A stretch of DNA of 64,000 nucleotides, taken from Bremerella volcania. Lineage in GTDB: Bacteria; Planctomycetota; Planctomycetia; Pirellulales; Pirellulaceae. Shown here piece after piece: positions 1 through 25,623 of the stretch. The first letter of the stretch is position 1, and the number at the start of each line of letters is the position of its first letter. The stretch covers positions 1 to 64,000 of the forward strand of contig NZ_CP036289.1 in NCBI RefSeq assembly GCF_007748115.1. The letters are read 5' to 3'. The notes beneath the pieces were generated by a model. It did no database searches. It saw nothing but the letters and a program-made list of their open reading frames with translations, and had not been told where the DNA came from. A program made the position numbers and the translations under genes.

Positions 1-1083
1 GTGGTTACGGAGATCATCACCATTGCCTTGCCTTGGGTCCGCCAGGAGGACCCCGCCTACATTGGATCCGTAAAACGATCCATTGAGGGTCTGCGCCCCT
101 TTGTGGCAGGGCCGGAAAACCGCATGATTCAATCGGCGGTCGAAGCACTGAAGCACGACGCTTCGCAGTTCTCGCCGATGGTCATCTACGGCCCCAGTGG
201 TTCCGGCAAGTCGCATTTGCTGCAAGGACTCACCGGCGTGCTGGTCGAGAAAGAGCCTGACCTGAAGGTTCTGTCGGTAACCGGAAGCGATTTTGCCCGC
301 GAGTACGGCAACGCGCTGCGTCAAGAAACGGCCAGCACCACGCGCACCGAGTTCTTCGGGACCGACGTCCTGGTGATCGAAGACCTGCACGAGCTGTTGC
401 ACTTTCCGTCGATGCAGCAGGTATTGCTGCACCTTCTCGACGAGCTGGAACGCCGCGGCGCCGCGGTCTTGGTTTCGTGCCGCGAGAATCCAATTGGCAT
501 GGAAGGGTTTTCGACCGAACTTCGCAGCCGTTTGTCGGCCGGTCTTTTGGTTCCGGTGGTTCTGCCAGAGCAGGGGACCCGCGAGGTGCTCATCCAGGGA
601 ATCGCCACGCGGCACAATCGTCAGATCACCAAGATGGCCGCCCAAAAGCTGGCCGCGGCCTTTCCGCACGGGCTGCTTCAGCTCAGCGGAATCGTGAATC
701 GGCTGATCGCCCAATCGCAGCCCAACCAAATCATCGATACGGCAGTCGTCGACTCGCTGTTGGAAAGCGAGCACAACACGGCCAAGGTCAGTCTTCGTAA
801 CATCGCCAGCATGACGGCCAAGTACTTCCGCGTGAAGGTCGCCGACATGAAGGGGAGTTCGCGACGGCAAAGTATCGTTCAGGCCCGCAGCGTCGCCATG
901 CTGCTGGCTCGGCAACTCACCGAAGAAAGCCTTAAAGCGGTCGGCAAACATTTCGGCGGCCGCGATCACACCACCGTCATGCACGCGGTGAGCAGTATGG
1001 AAGCCAAACTTAAAAAGGATGTTGCCTTGAGAGAAGCCGTGCTGGAACTGCGAGAGAGCATCTTGCAGCGCAGTGCGGCGTGA
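1..1083 (+). CDS. dnaA: Chromosomal replication initiator DnaA, short and divergent
   Basis: AAA+ ATPase that binds origin DNA and starts replication. Seen: Walker A GPSGSGKS at residues 64-71, Walker B VLVIED at 123-128, an arginine-finger-type segment LRSRLSAG at 174-181, and the domain IV DNA-binding signature GGRDHTTVMHA at 319-329. The protein is 360 residues against roughly 450 in typical DnaA, because nothing resembling domains I and II precedes the ATPase core. The usual sensor-2 RELEG motif reads LQLSG (226-230), so its arginine is absent. The GTG start is the first base of the window, so an N-terminal extension upstream cannot be excluded. dnaN, a DciA-like gene and gyrB follow, which fits a replication locus. 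Confidence 0.92.
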   Translation: MVTEIITIALPWVRQEDPAYIGSVKRSIEGLRPFVAGPENRMIQSAVEALKHDASQFSPMVIYGPSGSGKSHLLQGLTGVLVEKEPDLKVLSVTGSDFAREYGNALRQETASTTRTEFFGTDVLVIEDLHELLHFPSMQQVLLHLLDELERRGAAVLVSCRENPIGMEGFSTELRSRLSAGLLVPVVLPEQGTREVLIQGIATRHNRQITKMAAQKLAAAFPHGLLQLSGIVNRLIAQSQPNQIIDTAVVDSLLESEHNTAKVSLRNIASMTAKYFRVKVADMKGSSRRQSIVQARSVAMLLARQLTEESLKAVGKHFGGRDHTTVMHAVSSMEAKLKKDVALREAVLELRESILQRSAA

Positions 1084-1372: not shown

Positions 1373-1625
1373 ATGTCGACGTCGTGTCGCTTACCAGGGT
1401 CACTTCAAACGACCGACACCGCTAGCGAACTTGTCGACGCTCAAGCGACACGAAAACAACGGCCTGGCGCCAGGTTTTTCACACATGGATCCTCTTCGTT
1501 TGATTCGAAGACGGCCGAGCGAAACAAATTTTTGAGGTGACTTGTCGACAGCTCGCAGCGTCTCCTTACTACTACTACTCTTTCGAAAAACTAATAAGAA
1601 GACATTTGTTGGATTAACGAACTCC
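1373..1625. other. Candidate replication origin (oriC) in the dnaA-dnaN gap
   Basis: Six TGTCG-centred 9-mers cluster here: ATGTCGACG 1373, GTGTCGC 1384, reversed GTGTCGGTC 1411-1419, TTGTCGACG 1431-1439, reversed GTGTCGCTT 1443-1451 and TTGTCGACA 1542-1550. The last is one base from TTGTCCACA. It is followed by a G+C-rich stretch (1551-1565), then TTACTACTACTACT (1566-1579), then an A+T-rich tract (1581-1620). In Bacillus subtilis the basal unwinding system is DnaA boxes, a G+C-rich spacer and then DnaA-trios read as repeated CTA on this strand, so the order matches. Binding and origin activity are inferred. Confidence 0.5.
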
Positions 1626-7910: not shown

Positions 7911-8909
7911 ATGTCGCGAATGTGGTTGTGCGCCGTTTCTTTGGCAATTCTATGTGCCCTGAGTCTTCCAACATTTGGGCAGACATTCAGTCGAATCCTC
8001 TTCGATACCGACATGGAAAGTGATTGCGACGACGCGGCTTGTTTGGCCATGCTGCATGCGCTGGCGGATCGTGGCGAGATCGAACTTTTAGGGACGATGA
8101 TCTCGGCCAAGTTTCCCTGGTCGGGTCCGTGTGCCGATGCCATCAATACGTATTACGGTCGACCAGATCTGCCGATTGGCGTGCCCAAAGGGAAGGCTGG
8201 CATTCAGCAGGGTTCGAAATACGCCGAGCAAGTCGCGAAGCAGTTTCCGCACGACTGTCCCCTGTACGACGATGCCCCGGATGCGACCCGGCTGTATCGC
8301 CAGCTTTTGGCGGCTCAGCCAGATGGAAGTGTGACGATTCTGACCGTGGGAGATTTAACCAACCTGCGTTATCTGATCGAGTCGGAAGCGGACGAGATCA
8401 GTCCGCTCACGGGTCAGCAGTTGGTGAAAAAGAAAGTGGCTCACTGGGTGTGCATGGGAAGCCGTTACCCGGCCGACTTGGATCCCGGCAAGTGGGGCAA
8501 CTTCAAACCGGATGCCGAGTCGACGGTCAAAGCGATCGAAGCCTGGCCGACGAAGATCACCTTCACCGGAGGAGGCAAGTTCGCCGAGTTGATCTCGACC
8601 GGCAAGCGCCTGAAGGAATTGCCCCAAGATAATCCGGTTCGCCGCGTGTACGAACTTTACTTCGGCGGCAACGTGAAAGATCGTCACAGTGCCGATCAAA
8701 TCGCGGTGATGGTGGCGGCACGCGGAACGGGGCACCCGTGGAAGCTCGTCACCCAGGGGCACAATCATATCTTTCCCAACGGAACGCACCAGTGGGAAGT
8801 CGAAACCGATAACCCACGCCATCAATACATCTCAGCACTGGCCGATGGCGTGGATCCGCAGGAAGTGATCGACTCGTTCAACGAGTTGATGTTGCATCAG
8901 CCGAAGTAG
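7911..8909 (+). CDS. Secreted nucleoside hydrolase-like protein
   Basis: After a signal peptide (MWLCAVSLAILCALSLPTFG) the mature protein opens with RILFDTDMESDCDDAA. This is the calcium-binding aspartate cluster of inosine-uridine nucleoside hydrolases, which cleave the N-glycosidic bond of ribonucleosides. The 332-residue length fits that family. The frame opens at a TTG at 7860, but the ATG at 7911 puts the signal peptide at the N-terminus and is preferred. G+C-rich codon use returns here, marking the right edge of the A+T-richer cassette. It converges with the histidine kinase, with one base between the stops. Confidence 0.72.
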   Translation: MSRMWLCAVSLAILCALSLPTFGQTFSRILFDTDMESDCDDAACLAMLHALADRGEIELLGTMISAKFPWSGPCADAINTYYGRPDLPIGVPKGKAGIQQGSKYAEQVAKQFPHDCPLYDDAPDATRLYRQLLAAQPDGSVTILTVGDLTNLRYLIESEADEISPLTGQQLVKKKVAHWVCMGSRYPADLDPGKWGNFKPDAESTVKAIEAWPTKITFTGGGKFAELISTGKRLKELPQDNPVRRVYELYFGGNVKDRHSADQIAVMVAARGTGHPWKLVTQGHNHIFPNGTHQWEVETDNPRHQYISALADGVDPQEVIDSFNELMLHQPK

Positions 8910-20375: not shown

Positions 20376-21146
20376 ATGGAAAGCGATCCGGCAACGCGTT
20401 CGATTGGGCAATTGGCTGGCTTGTTTCTGTTTGTCGACTTGATGCTCACTCTATGGATCGTATTGCATCAGCCAGGCAAAGAAAACGCCGCAGCCGTCCT
20501 CATCGGAGTGCTCGTCGGGCAGTTTGGCCTGGGGTGCGCGGCGATTCTGAGAAACGAAAGCCTTCGCGAAGGAGCGATCGGTTGGCTTGTACTACTCGTT
20601 AGTTCGTCCGGCATCGTGCCGGTTGTCTTTGACCAGGTCGAGGAAGCGGGTTACATCCTGTTGTTCGCGCTGATCGTGGCAGGCGTTTGCTTAGCACTGA
20701 ATTTGTTGCCTACGGTGATTTTACGATCGTTGACGTCTCGCGGAGGATTTCAGTTCTCGATTCTGCATATCATGCTGCTGATGACTCTGGTCGGCGTCAG
20801 CATTGTGGTGGCGTCCATGACCTATCTCTTCCTGCTGGCGGCCATGGGCTTCATGCTCTTGCTTCTCGCTCCCGCAGCGATTGGTTGCCTGTTGGTGGGC
20901 GTACTCTCGCAGATGAGAGCCTATCTAGCGAGCATGGCGTTGATCCTCCTTTTGATCGGTGCGGGGTGGATGATGGCACCCGATGGAGGTCAGATTTGGG
21001 TTTACCTGGTGGCGCAGACGCTGACCGTCATGCTGGGAGGTTATGGTTTGATGCAGGTAGAACTCGATAGGGCCACTCTTAGCTCGGCAGCCACAGCGAG
21101 CCCGCTTCGGCCTGAGCCTCTTCCTGACCCACTCGACGAGCCTTGA
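20376..21146 (+). CDS. Multi-pass membrane protein, tandem paralogue 5 of 5
   Basis: 256 residues. Landmarks are GVLVGQFGLGCAAILRNE and QFSILHIMLLMTLVGVSIV. A purine-rich site ACGGAGAG lies just before the ATG at 20376 and decides the start. The soluble C-terminal tail (about 25 residues, Pro- and Leu-rich) is encoded by 68 bp that overlap the 3' end of the convergent methyltransferase gene. Function unknown. Confidence 0.75.
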   Translation: MESDPATRSIGQLAGLFLFVDLMLTLWIVLHQPGKENAAAVLIGVLVGQFGLGCAAILRNESLREGAIGWLVLLVSSSGIVPVVFDQVEEAGYILLFALIVAGVCLALNLLPTVILRSLTSRGGFQFSILHIMLLMTLVGVSIVVASMTYLFLLAAMGFMLLLLAPAAIGCLLVGVLSQMRAYLASMALILLLIGAGWMMAPDGGQIWVYLVAQTLTVMLGGYGLMQVELDRATLSSAATASPLRPEPLPDPLDEP

Positions 21147-21906
21147 TCCGCACGTACGGGGCGATGTATTTGCTGCGGTCCTCGAACGTATTAGGCTCGG
21201 CGTCTTCCTTGGCATGCAGCGGCTCGATCAGGTCTTCGATCACCAGGCCGGCGCGGCACATGCCGCCCAGTAGTTGCTCCCAGCGGTGTAGGTATTCGAG
21301 CGTCCCTTCTTCGCGGTGGCGGCTGCCGCGGACTTCCGGCAGGGGGCCTGTGCGATAGTAAGGCTCGGTCAACGGGTAACCGTGCTCGCTGCGGCGGACT
21401 TCGGCTTGCAGGCTCGTCGGCGTCTTGTGCTGACTGATGTAGATTCCCCCGCCGCAGAGCACCTTGGCGACTTCGCGAAAGACCGGGGCGACGTCCGGCA
21501 CATAGCACGTCGCGACCGGATGAATGACGATATCGAAGTCGGCCGGGGCGAACATCGACAGGTCGTCCATCGAGGCTTCCACCGTGCGAAGCTGCAGCCC
21601 GCGTTCTTTCGCCACGCGTCGATCGATCTCCAACTGGGCCCCGCTGATATCGACCACCGTCACGACGGCACCGGCCGCGGCGTACAGCGGACCTTGGCGA
21701 CCACCTCCAGCGGCCAGGCACAACACGCGCTGCCCGTAGATGCTTGGCCCCAGCCACCCCCAACGATCGAGCGTCTTGAGCGGGTTCTTGAACTCCTCAT
21801 CCTTCGCCGGCTGAGCGAACCGATGCCCTCCCCGAGCCATCCGATCCCAGGCGCCCTGGTTATGCTTCTTGGCGGGGGCGTTTTCGTGGGGGGAAGGTTG
21901 GCTCAT
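21079..21906 (-). CDS. SAM-dependent class I methyltransferase
   Basis: 275 residues. The SAM-binding motif I reads VLCLAAGGGRQGP (about residues 61-73), followed by the acidic motif II VTVVDISGAQLEIDRR and motif FDIVIHPVATCYVPDV. The N-terminal NQGAWDRMARGGHRFAQP and the later ISQHKTPTSLQ are typical of a planctomycete/cyanobacterial methyltransferase type whose substrate I cannot name. It lies 78 bp downstream of the NPFxSP membrane gene 21985-22416 in the same direction, so probably in that operon. Its last 68 bp are antisense to the tail of paralogue 5. Confidence 0.8.
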   Translation of the reverse strand: MSQPSPHENAPAKKHNQGAWDRMARGGHRFAQPAKDEEFKNPLKTLDRWGWLGPSIYGQRVLCLAAGGGRQGPLYAAAGAVVTVVDISGAQLEIDRRVAKERGLQLRTVEASMDDLSMFAPADFDIVIHPVATCYVPDVAPVFREVAKVLCGGGIYISQHKTPTSLQAEVRRSEHGYPLTEPYYRTGPLPEVRGSRHREEGTLEYLHRWEQLLGGMCRAGLVIEDLIEPLHAKEDAEPNTFEDRSKYIAPYVRIKARRVGQEEAQAEAGSLWLPS

Positions 21907-21984: not shown

Positions 21985-22416
21985 TCACGCAGGTCCATGA
22001 TAGTAGAACCTCCGCGACTGGGGATGCATCAGCAGCAGAAGAATGAGGGTGGTGACTAGCAGGACCAACGCTCCTCGCGTTGCCCGCCACCATTCTTGTT
22101 CGAGCATTGCCAAGGCGGTGCCGGCTATCAAGATTAGAAAGAGGACCGCGAAGTAGTTCGCCGACACGCGGTAGGCCCACAGTTGTCGGTAGAACAAAAG
22201 GAATCCGGCGGAAATGGCCAATAGCCCGGTGATCGGACCGAAGGGACCTTCCACGAGCGCCACCAGGCCGACGGCCAGCATCAGGCTGAACAGCCACGCG
22301 AGCGCGACCTGCCCCGGCACGCGAAAGGCGCGGGGGTCGCCAGGTTCTTCGACCACTTCCGGCTCCATCGGCGGCTCGTCGATCGTATCGGGGGATTCAA
22401 ATGGATTCTCATCCAT
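21985..22416 (-). CDS. Small membrane protein with N-terminal NPFxSP motif (1 of 4)
   Basis: 143 residues. A cytoplasm-side N-terminus with ENPFESPD and an acidic linker is followed by four hydrophobic segments (ALAWLFSLMLAVGLVALV, ITGLLAISAGFLLFY, YFAVLFLILIAGTALAML, ALVLLVTTLILLLLM). The NPFxSP tag recurs in the three upstream genes. The gene overlaps its upstream neighbour by 8 bp, so they are co-translated. Function unknown. Confidence 0.75.
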   Translation of the reverse strand: MDENPFESPDTIDEPPMEPEVVEEPGDPRAFRVPGQVALAWLFSLMLAVGLVALVEGPFGPITGLLAISAGFLLFYRQLWAYRVSANYFAVLFLILIAGTALAMLEQEWWRATRGALVLLVTTLILLLLMHPQSRRFYYHGPA

Positions 22417-22834
22417 GCGTCTTCAACCTTTCCTGGTATCCAATATAACCTAGGAGAACGGCGATGATCGCGTAGGCCAGCACAAAGCCGAGTAGGAAAG
22501 CCGTTTGGTAACCCTTCTCGAAAATCACGGCCTGCGTCGCGCAGCTGATGCTGACGGCGAAAGCGTAAAGGGTAGCCAGGGCCATCGTGCCGCGGGTAGG
22601 GATGATCAGGATGAACCCGACCACGGCGGTGATGCAGAACAGGATGCCGTTGATCACGTCCTGCAGCACCCAGCAGACGCCGAAGTGAGCCATGGCGATC
22701 AGCATGAACAGACACCAACTCACAAAGACCAGCACCGATATCGGATGGGCAGGCTCGTCGTCGACCAACGTGGTATTGGGGATCTCTTCGACAATGCCAG
22801 GGGACTGAAACGGATTGTCAGAAGACGAATTCAC
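22409..22834 (-). CDS. Small membrane protein with N-terminal NPFxSP motif (2 of 4)
   Basis: 141 residues beginning MNSSSDNPFQSPGIVEE, then four membrane segments and a short basic tail. It overlaps the upstream gene by 4 bp (ATGA type) and the downstream gene by 8 bp. It is similar in length, tag and topology to its neighbours, so probably a paralogue. Function unknown. Confidence 0.75.
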   Translation of the reverse strand: MNSSSDNPFQSPGIVEEIPNTTLVDDEPAHPISVLVFVSWCLFMLIAMAHFGVCWVLQDVINGILFCITAVVGFILIIPTRGTMALATLYAFAVSISCATQAVIFEKGYQTAFLLGFVLAYAIIAVLLGYIGYQERLKTHG

Positions 22835-23253
22835 TTCTTCGACCTTGCTCGCCAGTAGTACTTACTGGAGGTCTGTATCAGTAGCACCATGATGGTGACG
22901 TACAGCAGAAGCGGGGCCAGTCCCACGATCATGAGCGGACGGTCTTCGACGATCCCGCTCGTGAGAACGCCGACCGAAAGCACCGCCATCAGCGTGGCGT
23001 AGGCCAGACCGATCAGCCAGGTGAAGATCGACGGCAGCAACACGCTAAAGCCGACTGCCAGGCTCAGGAAGCCGACCATCAGTTGAACGCGATTGCCGGC
23101 CAGTAGCCCCGCGATGACGTGCAGCCCGGCGGCTGTGAGAAACAATCCCCACGTCAGCGAAACGAGATTGCGGACGTTGCGATAGGGGGTCGACGTGCGG
23201 TCGGTGGGCGCCGTCGGGGATTGAAACGGGTTGTCGTGCGAGGAGTTGGGCAT
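22831..23253 (-). CDS. Small membrane protein with N-terminal NPFxSP motif (3 of 4)
   Basis: 140 residues beginning MPNSSHDNPFQSPTAP, four membrane segments and a basic C-terminus YYWRARSKK. The frame opens at 23301, but the ATG at 23253 puts the NPFQSP tag at the same distance from the start as in the neighbours. It lies 5 bp after the stop of the upstream gene. Function unknown. Confidence 0.75.
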   Translation of the reverse strand: MPNSSHDNPFQSPTAPTDRTSTPYRNVRNLVSLTWGLFLTAAGLHVIAGLLAGNRVQLMVGFLSLAVGFSVLLPSIFTWLIGLAYATLMAVLSVGVLTSGIVEDRPLMIVGLAPLLLYVTIMVLLIQTSSKYYWRARSKK

Positions 23254-23258
23254 TTTCT

Positions 23259-23780
23259 TTACCAGCGAAAGCCGCACCTGGTGCAGCGTCGCTGGAAGCA
23301 TAACAGGTCATCCCCGCCGGAGTTCACATGATCGCAGTGGGGGCATTGAAGGCGATGAAACTTGCGGACCGACTCTCTTCCCAGGGACGAGAAGATCGCC
23401 AGACAAAGTCCAGCTTGCACCAGTCCCGAGACGATTGCCAGCGGGGGCTTCAAAAAGACGAACGCCATCACGCAAAAGCCGATGGCCATCATCCCATGAA
23501 ACAGAAAGTAAAACCGGGCCACCGCCCACGTCGGACTGCTGCGGGCAATGAGCCCCAGCGAGATCAAACACGAGAATGCAGCCCCCATCAGCAGACTGAA
23601 CTGCTGCGACGTGTCGGTGTAGCCAATGACGAAGAACTCGCCAATCTGCCACGCGGTGAGCAAAAGCCCCAAGAGAACCGCCACCGCCAACGGAGCAGGA
23701 ATCGACGACAACTCCGGCGACGACGGCTGATCGTCGCCATGCGGAGAAGTGAACGGGTTCGATTCGGGAGGTTCAGGCAT
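23259..23780 (-). CDS. Membrane protein with NPFxSP motif and C-terminal zinc ribbon (4 of 4)
   Basis: 173 residues. The N-terminus PESNPFTSPHGDD matches its operon partners; four membrane segments follow. The last 30 residues hold two CxxC knuckles, CPHCDHVN and CTRCGFRW, a likely rubredoxin-like zinc ribbon not present in the other three. It is the first gene of the operon. Directly upstream of its ATG begins the 11-bp phased array (23797-23885), which must lie in its promoter or leader. Function unknown. Confidence 0.75.
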   Translation of the reverse strand: MPEPPESNPFTSPHGDDQPSSPELSSIPAPLAVAVLLGLLLTAWQIGEFFVIGYTDTSQQFSLLMGAAFSCLISLGLIARSSPTWAVARFYFLFHGMMAIGFCVMAFVFLKPPLAIVSGLVQAGLCLAIFSSLGRESVRKFHRLQCPHCDHVNSGGDDLLCFQRRCTRCGFRW

Positions 23781-23796
23781 GCGAGCTAGTCAGGTT

Positions 23797-23885
23797 GGTT
23801 ATCGACAGGTATCCACATTGTATCAAACATCTATCGACGACTTACCAACAGGTTAACGACAGCATACCGACAGGTTTTCCACAGG
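23797..23885. promoter_or_regulatory. Eight-unit, 11-bp-periodic array of DnaA-box-like 9-mers
   Basis: Units start at 23799, 23809, 23820, 23831, 23842, 23853, 23864 and 23875: TTATCGACA, GTATCCACA, GTATCAAAC, CTATCGACG, TTACCAACA, TTAACGACA, ATACCGACA and TTTTCCACA, several followed by GG. Steps are 10 bp once and then 11 bp six times, close to one DNA turn. The 9-mers resemble the DnaA box TTATCCACA, and two share the TCGACA end of TTGTCGACA in the dnaA-dnaN gap. The array ends 17 bp from the start of the NPFxSP operon. Binding protein is inferred. Confidence 0.65.
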
Positions 23886-23893
23886 CGTGATTT

Positions 23894-24005
23894 TGAAGTT
23901 TTCAGTGTTCAGTTTTCAGTAGGACAAGCGCGCCATACTGGGTAGCATATGGCTGCCTGGTCCGACTCATCTCTTGTTGAAAACAGAACACTTCAAACTG
24001 TGAAC
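23894..24005. repeat. Imperfect inverted repeat with TTTTCAGTGTTCAG text
   Basis: TGAAGTTTTCAGTGTTCAGTTTTCAGT (23894-23920, given here in two parts by position) is partly complemented by GTTGAAAACAGAACACTTC and following bases at 23976-24005. It fills the space between the sigma factor terminator and the phased array. Confidence 0.35.
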
Positions 24006-24040
24006 AAAAAAAAAGCCGGACCCATGTGAGTCCGGCTTTT
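24006..24040 (-). terminator. Terminator of the sigma factor gene
   Basis: AAAAGCCGGAC (24011-24021) pairs with GTCCGGCTTTT (24030-24040). On the minus strand the stem is followed by a run of nine T residues (24006-24014 on the complement). It lies 30 bp past the stop. Confidence 0.9.
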
Positions 24041-24069
24041 GAATTTCGAAGGTAGACGCGAGGTTCGAC

Positions 24070-25623
24070 TTAGTCGAGGAAACCGACCAGGTCTTGGCTG
24101 CGGCTGGGCTGTTGCAGTTTGCGGACGGCCTTGGCTTCGATCTGGCGGATACGTTCGCGGGTCACTTTGAAGATGTGACCGACTTCCTCCAGGGTGTAGC
24201 TGTAGCCATCGCCCAAACCGTAACGCAGCTTGATGATCTCGCGTTCGCGGTAGCTGAGGGTCTTCAGCACGCGGCCAATCCGGCCACGCAGCATTTCCTG
24301 AGCAGCACCGTTAGCCGGGCTTTCGGCTTCGCCATCGGGAAGCAGGTCGCCGAACTGGCTGTCTTCGCTGTTGCCGACAGGGCGGTCAAGCGAGATCGGG
24401 TAGCGGCTCATGGCCAGCACGCGGCGGGCTTCTTCGACGGTCGTGCCAGCACGACGGGCCGTTTCTTCGATGGTGGGTTCGCGTCCTTTTTCCTGCAGCA
24501 GCTGACGAGCCACGTTACGAACGCGGGACATGGTTTCGACCATGTGAACCGGGATACGAATGGTTCGGCTTTGGTCGGCAACGGCACGGGTAATGGCCTG
24601 ACGAATCCACCAGGTAGCGTACGTGCAGAACTTGAAACCACGGCGGTATTCAAACTTGTCGACCGCACGCATCAGGCCGGCGTTGCCTTCCTGGATGAGA
24701 TCGAGGAAGCTCAAACCGCGGTTACGATACTTCTTGGCGATCGAGACCACCAGACGCAAGTTCCCTTCGGACAGCTCGCGCTTGGCTTGCTGGTATTCCG
24801 AGTAGATCGCTTTGACGGCCTGACAGCGACGGTTGAGACTCTTGGGAGTCTCTTGCGTGGCCATCAGCAGGTTGCGGTATTCGGCCAAAAGTGGTTGGCG
24901 ATCTTCCATCGGCGTGTTGGCCGCCTTGTGATCGTCCAAGCGAGCTTTCAGTTCGTTGATGCGGCGGCAGAATTCTTCCAGCACGCCGATCTTCGACTCG
25001 ATGCGTTGGGTACGCAGACCCAACTCTTCGATCAGTTTGACCACGCGATGACGGCGGTGGCTCAAACGGCGCCAGGCCGCGGTGCGCTTTTCGGCCGAGA
25101 CCGACTTGCTGAGCGCGGTGATGTAGTCACGACGGTTTCGCTTCAGCAGACGATCGATGGTGACCAGATTCATTGGCATGCGGCCCATGATCTGTTCTTT
25201 TTCTAAACGATCGGTCACCGAAACCTGAACCGTACGATCGAACGGGAGTTCGCCATCCTGCACGCGCTGCAAAACCTTGAAGGAATCTTGGGCGACGTAG
25301 TCGCACTCCAAGAGCAAGCGTCGGAACTTGGCTCGCGTTTGTTCGATCTTGCGAGCGAGATAGATTTCCTGTTGGCGGGTCAACAGGGGAATCTCGCCCA
25401 TTTGCGTCAGGTACATCCGAACCGGGTCGTCGGACCAGGTTTCGCTATCCTCGCTGAACTCATCGGATGAATCATCTGCCGAATCATTCGACATATCATC
25501 CGCACTCATCATGCGATCGTCATCAGAGTCATCGATCACATCGACGGCAGCATCGTCGAAGCTACGCGGACGTACTCGTGCATCATCATCTTCGAAATCG
25601 TCAATCAACGAATCGTACAACAT
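24070..25623 (-). CDS. rpoD: Housekeeping RNA polymerase sigma factor (RpoD/SigA)
   Basis: 517 residues. An acidic N-terminus rich in Asp and Ser (residues 8-66) is followed by region 1.2 ([17 protein letters not shown], 66-82), a long helical spacer, region 2 ([20 protein letters not shown] to [14 protein letters not shown], 283-353), region 3 (360-437) and region 4 with a helix-turn-helix [20 protein letters not shown] (478-497). It directs core polymerase to most promoters. An AAGGAG Shine-Dalgarno precedes the ATG by a few bases (complement of CTCCTT at 25628-25633). The acidic tract is longer than usual and may replace region 1.1. Confidence 0.95.

Follow-up and report, generated by a model that had tools for sequence, protein, structure and literature searches.

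The stretch analysed here (the window) covers bases 1-64,000 of the single-contig 6.5-Mb genome of Bremerella volcania (G000 in our genome collection), whose contig begins at dnaA. Between a gene for a small NPF-motif membrane protein and a sigma-70 family gene, it contains an array of eight DnaA-box-like 9-mers (23799..23883, plus strand), which keep one orientation throughout and start at 23799, 23809, 23820, 23831, 23842, 23853, 23864 and 23875, i.e., with a first step of 10 bp followed by six steps of 11 bp. The original prediction had reported eight units with these steps as well as a distance of about 24 kb from dnaA. Both are confirmed, dnaA starting at window base 1.

Relative to TTATCCACA, units 1-8 show 1, 1, 4, 3, 2, 2, 3 and 1 mismatches, respectively. 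Unit 1 (TTATCGACA, 23799..23807, plus strand) is identical to the box of the likely chromosomal replication origin (oriC) in 6/9 genomes of the genus and differs from the oriC box of its own genome, which is TTGTCGACA. Unit 2 (GTATCCACA, 23809..23817, plus strand) follows 10 bp past unit 1; the weaker boxes 3-7 (23820..23872, plus strand) continue in 11-bp steps, and unit 8 (TTTTCCACA, 23875..23883, plus strand) forms the distal strong box. Taken in isolation, unit 3 (GTATCAAAC) with its 4 mismatches is a poor DnaA box. Among all 102 units of the genus, the commonest letters are A7 (96%), T2 (87%), C8 (86%), C5 (82%) and A3 (81%).

To score the array, we used a matrix of 94 units from the eight other genus genomes, i.e., the window's array was left out of training. 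This relatives-only matrix assigns the array 85.8 bits, while the best site elsewhere in 456 kb around dnaA reaches 19.3 bits on the plus and 17.0 bits on the minus strand. Six first-order random sequences (456 kb, one strand each) give maxima of 14.4-19.6 bits with the same matrix. A chain test (at most 4 mismatches to TTATCCACA, steps of 10-12) in the 456 kb finds 8 units at the array and at most 6 anywhere else, and only the array site has three boxes with at most 1 mismatch to TTATCCACA within 600 bp. That is, the eight-box array is real and highly significant.

With regard to its surroundings, the array adjoins the NPF gene (23259..23780, minus strand, ATG at 23778-23780), and a gap of 18 bp (23781-23798) separates the start codon from the first box. 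The NPF genes are followed downstream by a methyltransferase gene (21079..21906, minus strand). The sigma-70 family gene (24070..25623, minus strand) ends at the opposite flank of the array and is followed by a terminator-like site (24011..24040, minus strand). The NPF gene product matches no Pfam family at E<=0.01, and no relative was found in a collection of named genomes. In total, window positions 21985-23780 encode four small NPF-motif membrane proteins that lack a Pfam match, and such paralogues are gained or lost in the relatives' NPF-sigma interval. The stretch 23892-23920 between the array and the sigma terminator is a dispersed intergenic repeat (AGTTTTCAGTGTTCAGTTTTCAG and variants) for which 23 other genomic places match at E<=0.001.

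Likeness of the array to dnaA-dnaN regions

To identify the boxes we used a sequence-only model (R1) built from 22 five-unit stretches of the genus arrays. Its E-values are rough, with about 2.5 false matches expected at E<=0.01 across 246 genomes of the order; 46 of these genomes are matched at that threshold, among them 8 of the genus. Outside the genus, 38 genomes are matched, and the loci of 22 were inspected, the other 16 being left out. Within this sample, dnaN flanks 12/22 loci, which belong to distant families, and dnaA1, the dnaA gene beside dnaN, flanks 10 of these as well; 4/22 are satellite arrays of another genus (g33, see below), and 6/22 are unassigned. Within the genus, R1 matches the dnaA1-dnaN region of G002, G004, G005 and G007 with E-values from 1.2e-4 to 2.9e-3. 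On its own genome, R1 yields six matches at E<=10, i.e., two to the array, one to the dnaA1-dnaN region, one to an element at 4,385,712 and two weaker ones; the dnaA1-dnaN match (1432-1483) has an E-value of 0.14, which is weak by itself. Leave-one-out matrices, applied to 35-57 kb per genome, place dnaA1-dnaN among the top three places, namely second or third, in 7/9 genus genomes.

Because a model built solely from arrays recovers dnaA-dnaN regions in distant families, the array units are very likely DnaA boxes. In addition, the form that the oriC box takes in the genus is identical to the array consensus. The proposal that an unrelated oligomerising regulator uses the array as operator, with a fortuitous likeness to DnaA boxes, runs against both observations; it was dropped after R1 had recovered the dnaA-dnaN regions, and we consider it very improbable.

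Several further box-like sites were noted on the way. The element at 4,385,712 (G000:C1:4385712-4385738, loci L158 and L129) is short, consists of two or three 11-bp-spaced DnaA-like boxes and lies about 220 bp upstream of a tRNA-Cys gene; a close likeness exists in G002, G003 and G008. In other genera, pairs of CGACAGGTTTTCCACA-type boxes are found at L053 (G019), L058 (G009) and L056 (G010), located upstream of a recA-like gene (name read from the translation) and about 700 bp upstream of dnaA2, the second dnaA gene. Such pairs perhaps mark a DnaA-controlled gene set. A 16-bp pattern taken from the final two units has 32 matches in 40 genomes vs. 3 for the reversed control. As a marker of arrays it was rejected, since few of the matches lie beside dnaA, i.e., it marks box pairs. 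Finally, L255 (G239:C1:6325807) is an 11-bp tandem repeat of CTACTGACG units with neither dnaA nor dnaN within 1.5 kb, and may be an unrelated tandem repeat.

A seemingly conserved position and changing neighbours

A protein search over 40 genomes finds the NPF protein in all nine genomes of the genus, plus one weak match elsewhere. The original prediction had suggested aligning the same intergenic region in relatives; when this interval between the NPF gene and the sigma-70 gene is compared, arrays are present in 9/9 genus genomes. A DNA search recovers the array at the NPF locus in seven of them, while those of G003 and G006 were recognised by reading the NPF-sigma interval. The main arrays comprise 8-12 boxes, with a first step of 10 bp in 9/9 genomes and 11 bp for the rest. 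More than one array is present in G003, with two (8 and 5 boxes), and in G006, with four (9, 4, 9 and 6 boxes), where the latter count results from dividing one detected 16-unit chain by hand into 9 + 4 boxes. All 13 arrays found in the genus share the orientation of dnaA1, at distances of 16.4-25.9 kb from it. One 9-box array of G006 (L182:8729-8825) lies between open reading frames ending at 8688 (plus strand) and 8864 (minus strand). Since these predicted genes are convergent, the array is upstream of neither, if they are real.

The genus g33 offers a comparison for different neighbours, with all of the following figures referring to its four genomes with an R1 match (G040, G099, G113, G117). 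Here, the arrays lie downstream of dnaA1 at a distance of 10.9-15.2 kb and on the same strand, and 7/7 share its orientation. In G099 and G117 they lie between argB-like and rluA-like genes, and in G040 and G113 further genes lie between; both gene names were read from translations without a family search. At the inspected g33 array loci, neither the NPF nor the sigma protein is matched within 3 kb at E<=1e-8.

Very likely, G113 represents Blastopirellula marina DSM 3645, since locus L273 maps to G256 and the best match of G256 coincides in place and E-value with that of G113. The sigma-NPF locus of B. marina (L273), which comes from another assembly than G113, keeps the order of sigma gene, NPF homologue (28% identity, E 3e-16) and methyltransferase (70%), and its sigma-NPF interval contains no array. 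The loss of the array next to intact flanking genes, which the original prediction had named as a refuting outcome, is thus seen one genus away and speaks against a role bound to the operon. It does not speak against DnaA, because arrays are present elsewhere near dnaA in that genus. Among 80 named sigma-gene loci, some of which end at a contig edge, the best chain (score 21.4, three units) was not taken as an array.

The two genera thus share the distance range and the polarity of their arrays relative to dnaA1. Because the neighbouring genes differ between their loci, it seems that the position near oriC and the polarity, rather than the operon, are conserved, which on two genera is suggestive rather than proven.

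The likely origin and the DnaA proteins

Directly downstream of dnaA1, the dnaA1-dnaN region contains a weaker five-unit 11-bp array (1431..1483, plus strand) as part of the likely oriC, followed by the DnaA box TTGTCGACA (1542..1550, plus strand) and a run of DnaA-trios, CTTACTACTACTACTC (1565..1580, plus strand), which is invariant in 9/9 genus genomes. In all nine, the order is a box of the form TTRTCGACA, a spacer and the invariant CCTTACTACTACTACTCTTTCGAAA. The basal unwinding system is described as a DnaA box, a spacer of at most 16 nt and at least three DnaA-trios with the consensus 3'-GAT-5' (PMC8287927). Window positions 1542-1580 are in accordance with this rule, with a spacer of 15 nt if TTA is taken as the first trio. 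The box-plus-trio unit between dnaA and dnaN is therefore a likely oriC of the genus, as judged from its sequence, and provides a concrete candidate for experiments. With regard to dnaA1 itself, an exact TTTTCCACA box (minus strand) is located about 160 bp upstream of it in G000. Such a box occurs within 400 bp upstream of dnaA1 in 6/9 genus genomes and is followed by TATAAT in 5 of these, such that autoregulation is possible.

In the sampled GC skew, positive values prevail between about 80 kb and 3.2 Mb and negative values between 3.3 Mb and the end, which puts the origin near dnaA. When about 200 kb on each side are considered, the cumulative GC skew reaches its minimum upstream of dnaA, at a distance of 12 kb in both G000 and G001 and of 52 kb in G008, and G000 shows another low near +80 kb. 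GC skew thereby places the origin to tens of kb only. The original prediction had suggested comparing the GC-skew inflection at 23.8 kb; in G000, G001 and G008, the array is near a local maximum, not a minimum, of the cumulative skew. Beside the array, reading of the genus intervals by eye revealed no conserved trio run and no AT-rich element. The array, about 22 kb from the likely oriC, is thus probably not an unwinding site.

DnaA1 (360 aa, 1..1083, plus strand) comprises an AAA+ domain (residues 33-184) and a box-binding domain (267-331). Only about 30 residues precede the AAA+ domain, i.e., almost no N-terminal part is present, and the gene lies beside dnaN and gyrB. The protein matches solved DnaA chains, among them 1j1v and 3pvp over the box-binding end, and its GGRDHTTV stretch is intact. 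A second protein, DnaA2 (469 aa, G000:C1:2267635-2269044, L131, at 2.27 Mb), has an altered box-binding motif: by eye it reads FQRRSHSTV at the GGRDHTTV position, yet it matches the Pfam box-binding family. At least two matches to DnaA1 are present in 38/40 genomes, some of them being pieces of one gene. No array was seen when about 1 kb upstream of the own dnaA2 was read. DnaA1 is the likely binder of the array.

Interpretation and comparison with known systems

We read the array as an oriC-proximal scaffold for an oligomer of DnaA (probably DnaA1) that may serve as a titration site, and give this reading a probability of roughly 0.55. The original prediction had seen DnaA-box-like units in a register suiting a DnaA oligomer, which is supported by the sequence comparisons above, and had offered four roles. 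Among these, a titration-type site fits best; a second origin is not supported, a promoter of the NPF operon is weakened and a different regulator is unlikely.

Mechanistically, DnaA would nucleate at the strong end boxes TTATCGACA and TTTTCCACA and spread from there across the weaker same-facing boxes, where the 11-bp register (9-bp box plus 2-bp gap) would set every subunit on approximately the same face of the helix. With 22 kb between it and the likely oriC, the array would be copied soon after initiation. The doubled sites could then draw DnaA off oriC and make a second firing less likely, a mode of action comparable to that of datA of Escherichia coli and of the DnaA-box clusters of Bacillus and Streptomyces. 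DnaA1 binding, oligomer formation and a negative effect on initiation are what we infer for the array; a damping of re-initiation is proposed because the near-origin clusters of Bacillus subtilis and Streptomyces coelicolor are taken as precedent.

Several observations weigh against this interpretation. A number of arrays abut or overlap a gene start and thus look operator-like, and conservation within the genus is partly owed to shared ancestry. In the 456-kb scan, the dnaA1-dnaN array of the window comes no higher than fifth among plus-strand sites, and its 15.7 bits are at noise level. Furthermore, satellite arrays are found in two genera only: among the 34 genomes of the family that are listed, R1 matches 14 (8 in the window's genus, 4 in g33 and 2 elsewhere) and leaves 20 without a match, with 180 further R1 misses not itemised. 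G132 and G239 have one R1 match each for which nearness to dnaA was not seen; that of G132 is on a different contig from its dnaA1.

A switching of the NPF operon with the cell cycle by a DnaA oligomer on the array is the most serious competitor, although we regard it as unlikely. Repression would be probable here because unit 1 is only 18 bp from the start codon. In 7/9 genus genomes, the array occupies the greater part of the short interval that separates the NPF start from the sigma gene. Moreover, the minus strand offers TTGATA (in unit 3) and GATAAC (in unit 1), which agree by eye with 9/12 consensus letters and whose 17-bp spacing results from the odd first step of 10 bp. However, GATAAC lacks the final T, a sigma-70 scan of 23600-24200 found no promoter, and G003 as well as some G006 arrays offer a poorer version of the pair (by eye). 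The array-free sigma-NPF-methyltransferase order of B. marina, the g33 loci with neither an NPF nor a sigma match and the G006 array between convergent predicted genes point in the same direction. As the sole role, the NPF promoter was dropped on the G006 and B. marina evidence; a side effect of the array on NPF transcription is possible.

Still less probable is a positive site, be it a DARS-like reactivation site or a helper site that loads DnaA and feeds oriC. It would share the DnaA-box logic and the conserved position, sequence cannot give the sign of the effect, and the positions of datA and DARS matter in Escherichia coli (PMC5010248), but a long same-facing array contrasts with the three boxes described for DARS1 (PMC4585315). 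Lowest of all we rank a second origin or a part of a bipartite oriC, which was dropped once the trio run had been found at dnaA-dnaN. The array is the sole dense DnaA-box cluster in the 456 kb around dnaA, which would suit such a role, as would the coarse localisation of the origin by GC skew. Against this stand the box-plus-trio unit at dnaA1-dnaN in 9/9 genomes, the lack of an adjacent conserved trio run or AT-rich element at the array, its place near a local maximum of the skew in G000, G001 and G008 and the sigma terminator that follows about 15 bp past the last box in G001, G002, G004 and G007 (by eye).

More tentatively, the DnaA scaffold may represent a new near-origin control element, i.e., a long double-stranded DnaA-filament scaffold in which as many as 12 boxes face the same way and strictly follow an 11-bp register. 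Such a scaffold would change locus and copy number in evolution yet stay within its distance range from oriC and retain its polarity, and it would act as an initiation timer for a DnaA almost without N-terminal domain. If true, the array would be a compact natural substrate for DnaA oligomers and a testable case in which oriC distance and polarity are kept while neighbouring genes change. Near-origin arrays may then help to time the start of replication rather than switch one neighbouring gene. An incomplete literature search, covering titles and abstract openings, gave no report of a planctomycete oriC or DnaA-box cluster, and in these sources the timing of chromosome replication in planctomycetes seems little described.

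Known systems share single features of the array. The datA locus of E. coli, too, is a cluster of DnaA boxes that is non-coding, lies outside oriC and has a conserved position (PMC5010248, PMC4585315). It is described to require an IHF site as well as particular, spaced boxes (PMC4585315), whereas here 8-12 same-facing boxes follow an 11-bp register and the function is predicted. Within E. coli oriC, arrays of weaker boxes accompany the strong boxes (R1, R4) at which DnaA nucleates (PMC4285127), an arrangement that resembles the strong and weak units found here; in contrast to those arrays, which are inside the origin near the unwinding element, the array lies 22 kb off and no such element was seen beside it in the genus intervals. 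For Thermotoga maritima, most DnaA dimer is reported on two same-facing boxes 2 bp apart (PMC10316083). The DnaA-oligomerising region of its oriC thus has the same orientation and gap, but is part of oriC beside the DNA unwinding element and uses another box sequence. Finally, B. subtilis and S. coelicolor possess DnaA-box clusters close to oriC that can hold back initiation at the wrong time (PMC4585315). Clusters near the origin are thus already known, and what is new here, in another phylum, is a long, strictly phased array that runs in one direction with an 11-bp register.
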